NCBI GenBank assembly: GCA_020445605.1 | Contig: JAGRGH010000040.1 | Location: 62,001 to 126,000 of the forward strand | Direction of reading: 5' to 3' | Length of the DNA: 64,000 nucleotides | Source: Chromatiales bacterium | GTDB taxonomy: Bacteria > Pseudomonadota > Gammaproteobacteria > JAGRGH01 | Part shown: in pieces, positions 2,963 through 4,387 of the stretch | Layout of the letters: every line of letters starts with the position of its first letter | Numbering within the stretch: the first letter of the stretch is position 1 | Notes under the pieces: model-generated | Told to the model about the DNA's origin: nothing | The model's input: the letters and a program-made list of their open reading frames with translations, nothing else | Databases searched by the model: none | Made by a program: the position numbers and the translations under genes

Positions 2963-2980
2963 TGTAAGCCTTTGCCTACA
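2963..2980 (+). promoter_or_regulatory. GacA-type upstream activating site
   Basis: The bases TGTAAG-CCTTTG-CCTACA match the known GacA/UvrY palindrome TGTAAG-N6-CTTACA at 11 of 12 fixed positions. The site centre lies about 70 bases before the transcription start inferred from a TCTAAC -10 box at 3030-3035. That is the spacing seen in front of rsmY and rsmZ genes in pseudomonads. Regulation by a GacS/GacA system encoded elsewhere is inference. Confidence 0.65.
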
Positions 2981-3041
2981 CGATCTCGGGGTGTTTGCCG
3001 CTGTCGTACGGGGCGTCGGAAAACCAAACTCTAACCGTCGC

Positions 3042-3147
3042 CACCGAACGGACGCAGGGATGCGACACGGTGCAGGAAGCGCCCCCAACGGACCCCTCCA
3101 ACCAAGCCCGGCGACCAACCCCGGTGGACGGATTCACCGGGGTTTTT
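3042..3147 (+). ncRNA. candidate Rsm/Csr-family small RNA (CsrA sponge)
   Basis: An RNA of about 105 nt starting near 3042 would carry six GGA triplets, beginning at 3050, 3058, 3075, 3090, 3126 and 3130. One lies in the loop of a perfect hairpin CGCA-GGGA-TGCG (3053-3064). Two lie in the loop of the terminator stem. GGA in hairpin loops is the binding signature of CsrA/RsmA, and RsmY/RsmZ/CsrB RNAs of this size act by titrating that protein. A GacA-like site and a -10 box precede it and a strong intrinsic terminator ends it. The RNA overlaps the last 14 bases of the oppositely oriented thioredoxin-fusion gene. The start point is inferred, not seen. Confidence 0.65.
3119..3147 (+). terminator. 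intrinsic terminator of the small RNA
   Basis: Perfect 8-bp stem CCCCGGTG / CACCGGGG (3119-3126 and 3135-3142) with an 8-base loop, followed by TTTTT at 3143-3147. The loop contains two GGA triplets. The T run is on the plus strand only, so it serves rightward transcription; the stem overlaps the stop codon of the leftward gene. Confidence 0.85.
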
Positions 3148-4387
3148 CATTGCCGACGGATTTGTCGAGCAGCGCCTCGATCGGCCCCATGTTCTCGGCG
3201 CGTTCCCAGTCCAGCGCGCCGACGATCCCGTAGCGGATGCGCCCGTCGCGATCGATGACAAAGCTGGTCGGAAACGCGTGCACGTTCCAGCGCGCCGCCG
3301 CGCTCGCCTCGACATCGAGCAGGTTCGGGAACGCCACATCGACCCGCTTCAGAAACGCACGCATCTGTGCGGCGGTTTCACCGACGTCGACGCCCACGAC
3401 CCGCAGCCCGCGTTCGTAGAGCCGCGCGCGCAGGCGATTCATCGACGGCAGCTCCTCGACACAGGGTGGACACCAGGTCGCCCAGAAGCTGAGCAGCACG
3501 ACCTCGCCGCGAAACTCGTCCAGACTCAGCGGCCTGCCGTCCACATCCGCGAGCGCCAGCCCCGGCGCCTCGCGCGGCGGCTCGATGGCGGTCAGCGCCG
3601 TGTCGAATTTCGAGCGTGGTGGCAAGGCCAGCGGCGCGCCGTCATCGGCCGCGTGCGGCGCGTCCATCCAGCCGGCGTGGCGTCCGAGCATCTGGACCGC
3701 ACGCAGCAATACGTTCGAACGGTCCGGACCACGGCCTGACTCGCCGTAGATCAGCTCGGCGCCGTCATCGAGCGCCCAGCGATACGCCGCGCTGCCACCC
3801 GCACGCAGCCGCTCGGCCAGCTGCTCGAACTGGTCCAGGCGCGCCGAGTGGGCCTGAACGATCACGACCGGCAGCCGGGTGACATCGACGACCGGGTCGA
3901 ACTCGATCGGGCGGCCGATCTCGGGACGGTCCGCGGTCAGGTTCGGGCTGAACAGGATCGCGCCGGCCAGCGGCCGCGCCGGATCGCCGCGCAGGGTCCA
4001 CTCGCGCGCGACGCGCAGCGCGAAGGCCGCGCCGCGACCGGCGGCGACGATGAACACCCGGCGGCCGTCACGCGCGGCGAGATCGACGAGTCCCGCGACC
4101 GCGCCGGCATCGAACTGGTGCAGGGAGCCGCGTCCCGGGGTCGCGAAGGCGCCGGCATGCAGGTCCACGCGCCAAACGGACAACCCGCGTGCATGCACTG
4201 AGCGAATGGTCTCGCGTTCGCGGCCGTGAAAGCCGTTTTCGCCGGGCAGCCACAACAGGACACCCGTCGCGCCCGGCAGGTCCAGGCGTTCCACGCCCAG
4301 TGACTCGAGCAGGGTCTCGTCAACCGCGCCGGCCGGCCCGGCGAGGACCATCGCCAGCAGGCCCGCAATCCACTTCAAACCGCGCAT
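3134..4387 (-). CDS. secreted alpha/beta-hydrolase-like domain fused to a TlpA-type thioredoxin
   Basis: This 417-residue protein begins with a signal peptide (MRGLKWIAGLLAMVLAGPAGA). Residues about 25-230 resemble an alpha/beta hydrolase: LLWLPGENGFHGRE near the start and a segment IVAAGRGAAFALRVA where a nucleophile elbow would sit, but without a clear GxSxG serine. From about 265 to the end it is a TlpA/ResA-like thioredoxin with WATWCPPC and the cis-Pro region HAFPTSFVIDRDGRIRY. The periplasmic redox half is confident; the hydrolase half may be a non-catalytic binding domain. It is the last gene of the seven-gene leftward run, 18 bases after the YdcF-like gene. The fusion is unusual. Confidence 0.8.
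   Translation of the reverse strand: MRGLKWIAGLLAMVLAGPAGAVDETLLESLGVERLDLPGATGVLLWLPGENGFHGRERETIRSVHARGLSVWRVDLHAGAFATPGRGSLHQFDAGAVAGLVDLAARDGRRVFIVAAGRGAAFALRVAREWTLRGDPARPLAGAILFSPNLTADRPEIGRPIEFDPVVDVTRLPVVIVQAHSARLDQFEQLAERLRAGGSAAYRWALDDGAELIYGESGRGPDRSNVLLRAVQMLGRHAGWMDAPHAADDGAPLALPPRSKFDTALTAIEPPREAPGLALADVDGRPLSLDEFRGEVVLLSFWATWCPPCVEELPSMNRLRARLYERGLRVVGVDVGETAAQMRAFLKRVDVAFPNLLDVEASAAARWNVHAFPTSFVIDRDGRIRYGIVGALDWERAENMGPIEALLDKSVGNEKPR

Follow-up and report, generated by a model that had tools for sequence, protein, structure and literature searches.

A predicted GacA-activated, CsrA-sequestering small RNA gene behind a carbamoyltransferase gene in a Chromatiales bacterium

Introduction

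A short spacer in a Chromatiales genome raises the question of whether it encodes a regulatory small RNA of the Rsm/Csr type or is only the tail of the gene before it. The spacer was found within a window of 64,000 nucleotides (64 kb, the whole stretch of DNA analysed), between a NodU-like carbamoyltransferase gene on the plus strand (1209-2936; Pfam PF02543/PF16861) and a convergent minus-strand gene (3134-4387) for a protein with a C-terminal TlpA/ResA-type thioredoxin-like domain (Pfam AhpC-TSA/Redoxin). Its reading frames are all overlapping ones and look spurious, so that no coding function is apparent.

An earlier note on this DNA proposed a Gac/Rsm-type small RNA locus at this place. 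That proposal is supported by a GacA box, promoter spacing, GGA content and a terminator that match those of other box-linked RNAs, a bona fide RsmY among them, and by the presence of csrA and gacA in the genome. On the strength of these sequence features, the interval very probably encodes a GacA-activated small RNA that would sequester CsrA.

The GacA box

The GacA/UvrY box TGTAAGcctttgCCTACA is located at 2963-2980 on the plus strand. It is an asymmetric variant, TGTAAG-N6-CCTACA, with 11 of the 12 fixed bases, as had been claimed. While GGA density was assessed within the 64-kb window, box matches were sought in the whole 3.36-Mb genome, where TGTAAGCCTTTGCCTACA at 2963-2980 is the sole site with at most one mismatch to the GacA consensus and the one perfect match to the relaxed pattern TGTARGN6CYTACA. 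The single box fits the known pattern, in which a genome carries one or two GacA sites; in P. aeruginosa, for instance, GacA sites are found only at rsmY and rsmZ (PMC9159945).

Weaker box sites (1-2 mismatches) also occur elsewhere in the source genome. None of the approximately 25 inspected on both strands has a GGA cluster together with a terminator, and no second Rsm RNA was found among them. One locus considered for this role, L036 on the minus strand, was rejected: it has GGA motifs without a terminator and runs into an apparent tRNA gene.

A genome of this size should contain about 1.5 one-mismatch boxes on base composition alone. On its own, the box is therefore no proof, and the context carries the case. 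The same expectation favours a plainer reading, in which the interval is merely where the carbamoyltransferase transcript ends: a strong terminator would serve the two convergent genes, and both the GacA-like palindrome and the enrichment of GGA in a G+C-rich spacer would have arisen by chance. The terminator is flanked by convergent genes and follows the stop codon of the co-directional one by 180 nt, a position that would suit this reading, as would the ordinary folding energy of the whole RNA (z = -1.2). However, the genome's best box and the window's densest plus-strand A(N)GGA cluster lie within the same stretch of about 185 bp, correctly ordered, oriented and spaced, and L198, a locus laid out alike, is RsmY. 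A mere transcript end is hence an unlikely explanation, and a dedicated small RNA gene is the preferred one.

Predicted promoter and transcription start

An ungapped alignment of other box-linked loci, anchored on the box, revealed conserved positions downstream of it, with G at +10 in 19/22 loci and C at +18 in 17/22. The source locus has the same bases at the aligned positions (G at 2990, C at 2998), within a box-downstream element at 2981-3004 on the plus strand. This element and its equivalents may represent a possible weak second GacA contact, approximately 22 bp downstream.

In the same alignment the -10 position falls at +45 to +50 after the box, where the RsmY of L198 has TAGTCT and the source locus has CAAACT (3025-3030, plus strand). 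Comparison with L198, L249 and L291 makes this hexamer the more likely -10. The TCTAAC favoured in the earlier note is indeed present at 3030-3035, but it lies 5 nt downstream and is better regarded as the alternative. The predicted start shifts accordingly from the proposed 3042 to near 3037, and the box, previously placed about 70 bases before the start, would be centred near -65. The -10 of the source locus is weak and a -35 is not evident, which is usual in activated promoters, though not proof of one.

A position matrix built without the source locus scored it above 99.4% of shuffles (P = 0.006). With a promoter model made from 19 sequences, the source locus again excluded, the match at 2963-3004 reached 13.4 bits in the direction of the RNA versus 7.5 in the opposite orientation. 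It also ranked first in the 64-kb window, in a scan made with filters off and with a model low in information. The loci used to train this model were picked largely by the same GGA and terminator criteria, and the source locus was not among them.

GGA motifs and structure of the predicted RNA

The predicted small RNA (3037-3147, plus strand, from the inferred start) is approximately 110 nt long. The six GGA triplets earlier reported within about 105 nt were all recovered in this interval, at 3050, 3058, 3075, 3090, 3126 and 3130. Five of them have the form A(N)GGA, versus a mean of 0.99 in dinucleotide shuffles (P(>=5) = 0.0012). This makes 3037-3147 the densest plus-strand A(N)GGA cluster of the window, as no other plus-strand stretch of 111 nt reaches five; on the minus strand of the window, two short stretches reach five A(N)GGA in 111 nt.

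Two of the putative CsrA motifs are ACGGA sequences at 3048-3052 and 3088-3092, and three GGA-loop hairpins are possible, two of which are part of the minimum-energy fold. The hairpin at 3053-3064, CGC-AGGGAU-GCG, is a near-SELEX CsrA site that contains an exact CARGGAUG, the core of the SELEX consensus RUACARGGAUGU (PMC7652899). Described in the earlier note as CGCA-GGGA-TGCG, it is real when folded alone, but it is weak, at a predicted -3.5 kcal/mol, and absent from the full-length minimum-energy fold, in which its GGGA pairs with CCCU. A better hairpin had been overlooked at 3069-3083: GGUGC-AGGAA-GCGCC shares its loop with hairpin 1 of RsmY and is retained in the minimum-energy fold. Several GGA are paired in the full-length minimum-energy fold, and likewise in the real RsmY of L198.

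The intrinsic terminator at 3117-3147 was confirmed, with a stem-loop at 3117-3144, a 12-bp stem and a T-run. Two GGA had been assigned to its loop; only one is found there (loop CGGA, or the ANGGAN hexaloop ACGGAU), and the other belongs to the uppermost part of the stem. The terminator shares sequence with the final codons of the convergent TlpA-like gene, whose stop codon lies at 3134-3136. Just before the terminator, GGCGAC (3110-3115) is able to pair with the predicted 5' end of the RNA, GUCGCC (3037-3042).

3'-UTR-derived small RNAs are a known type, and identical GGA sites and the same terminator would also be found if the tail of the carbamoyltransferase mRNA were processed into a CsrA sponge independently of GacA. 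Such an origin is highly improbable, given that the GGA cluster is separated from the stop codon by a GacA box of its own and by promoter-like sequence, neither of which a processed 3' UTR would need.

For the preferred reading, a GacA-activated small RNA, the following mechanism can be proposed. Phosphorylated GacA would bind the box at 2963-2980 and bring about sigma-70 transcription from around 3037, which the terminator would stop at 3147. In the resulting RNA of approximately 110 nt, hairpin loops (AGGGAU, AGGAA, ACGGAU) and linkers would together expose about five A(N)GGA sites. By binding perhaps two or three CsrA dimers, the RNA would lift CsrA repression of its presumed physiological targets.

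Protein partners in the genome

The BarA-UvrY system is reported to be typical of Gammaproteobacteria and to be largely devoted to small RNAs that antagonise CsrA (PMC4682653). The source genome has one csrA gene, above both NCBIfam cut-offs and followed by tRNA-Ser and tRNA-Arg, and one GacA/UvrY above the curated cut-off (294 vs 280 bits). The third partner named earlier, gacS, is less clear: the best hybrid kinase, for which BarA is the top NCBIfam match and LetS the second, reaches 453 bits against a cut-off of 890, and Pfam detects no Hpt domain in it. A BarA/GacS-like kinase is thus present only below its cut-off.

The usual neighbour of gacA/uvrY is uvrC. In the source genome, the gacA/uvrY gene (L214, C59:7000-12500) is apparently not beside uvrC; genes for an alpha/beta hydrolase and an ABC transporter are nearby.

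Box-linked RNAs across Gammaproteobacteria

The genome set searched contains no genome of the same order besides the source. Conservation of the spacer and its surroundings was therefore sought further afield. A DNA search of 56 class members returned short chance-level matches only, plus the box itself in G034. The TlpA-like neighbour was not found at 80 carbamoyltransferase loci of other genomes in a synteny check whose best relatives shared at most 75% identity, and the TlpA-like protein itself occurs in 49 of 274 genomes, at no more than 40% identity throughout.

The GacA box was then used as an anchor in 274 gammaproteobacterial genomes. The exact box is present in 34 of them, versus 18 for a reversed control, and the CCTACA variant in 45. 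Downstream of each box, a scan required at least four A(N)GGA in 110 nt together with a terminator. This combination was found in 16 of 124 box directions for the CCTACA variant, a set that includes the source locus, in 5/76 for the exact box and in 0/36 for the reversed control. The difference between variant and reversed control (Fisher P = 0.013) comes from a class comparison of modest size with a small control set. The link between box, GGA motifs and terminator is seen across the class.

By eye, nine loci carry convincing Rsm/Csr-like RNAs (L249, L250, L256, L261, L276, L291, L248, L198 and L192). L198, recovered with the exact box, is an Rfam RsmY at 81.5 bits with the same layout as the source locus, and this recovery of a true RsmY validates the box-anchored approach. 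GGA-rich RNAs, mostly terminated, were observed right after TGTAAGN6CCTACA boxes at L249, L250, L256, L261, L264, L275, L276, L283, L291, L248, L254 and L258. None of those scanned reached an Rfam gathering score, and these RNAs resemble Rsm/Csr RNAs that no known family covers. At some loci (L248, L258, L293) a second CCTACA half is located downstream of the box.

Some of these RNAs contain a further element. The sequence CAAUCACCUC is found in L256, L249, L250 and L283, which share TCAATCACCTC(C/T/A)AGCCA just before the terminator (L249:1674, L250:1674, L256 minus 1679, L283:829). The sequence AUCACCUCC is identical to the anti-Shine-Dalgarno stretch at the 3' terminus of 16S rRNA. The source locus has CCCCTCCAACC at a similar place (3093-3103), with weak similarity only and with CCCCUCC at 3093-3099. 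It is a distinctly long shot that the source RNA forms an undescribed GacA-controlled group with several box-linked RNAs from other families of Gammaproteobacteria, defined by CsrA-trapping GGA sites together with a CCUC(C) element that precedes the terminator. If such a group exists, pairing of the element with Shine-Dalgarno sequences, or with GGA sites in the same RNA, might provide a second, switch-like activity.

Comparison with known systems

The Rfam models RsmY, RsmX, PrrB/RsmZ, CsrB and CsrC, proposed earlier as a check, do not match the source locus. A scan of the locus gave no match at gathering, these five families were absent even at E <= 10, and the other matches at E <= 10 were implausible. 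Rfam recognises only 1 of 19 loci scanned, the source locus included; the missing match means little, because other box-linked loci are missed too. The predicted RNA adds a new member, from a new lineage, to a known functional class and fits none of the RsmX/Y/Z families of Rfam. It would be the probable Gac/Csr output RNA of a gammaproteobacterium whose order lacks other genomes in the searched set. This also highlights that Rfam misses most such candidates, and that they are recovered when a search starts from the GacA box and accepts the CCTACA variant.

One of the closest known systems is RsmY (RF00195), as known from P. aeruginosa and P. fluorescens and as found at L198. RsmY and the predicted RNA share an upstream GacA box, a -10 at +45 to +50 and a start approximately 55-60 nt after the box, followed by a 5' ACGGA, hairpins bearing GGA (in one of them the loop is AGGAA, as in hairpin 1 of RsmY) and a terminator, within about 110-120 nt. 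Unlike RsmY, the source RNA has no Rfam score, a different order of hairpins, a GGA in the terminator loop and CCTACA in place of CTTACA.

With CsrB/CsrC of E. coli and CsrB1/B2 of Shewanella, the source locus shares a UvrY box and, putatively, the titration of CsrA by repeated A(N)GGA. CsrB and CsrC of E. coli are longer and carry many more GGA. The box of E. coli csrB is centred near -183 (PMC4682653), in contrast to a position near -65 at the source locus. In size, the predicted RNA resembles RsmX and RsmX-2 of fluorescent pseudomonads: RsmX-2 is a confirmed RNA of 110 nt with six GGA (PMC7911923), and the source RNA also has about 110 nt and six GGA, although its genomic place differs and the Rfam scan detects no similarity between them. 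In summary, the source RNA is not RsmX/Y/Z or CsrB/C as Rfam models them, but probably works like RsmX/Y/Z.
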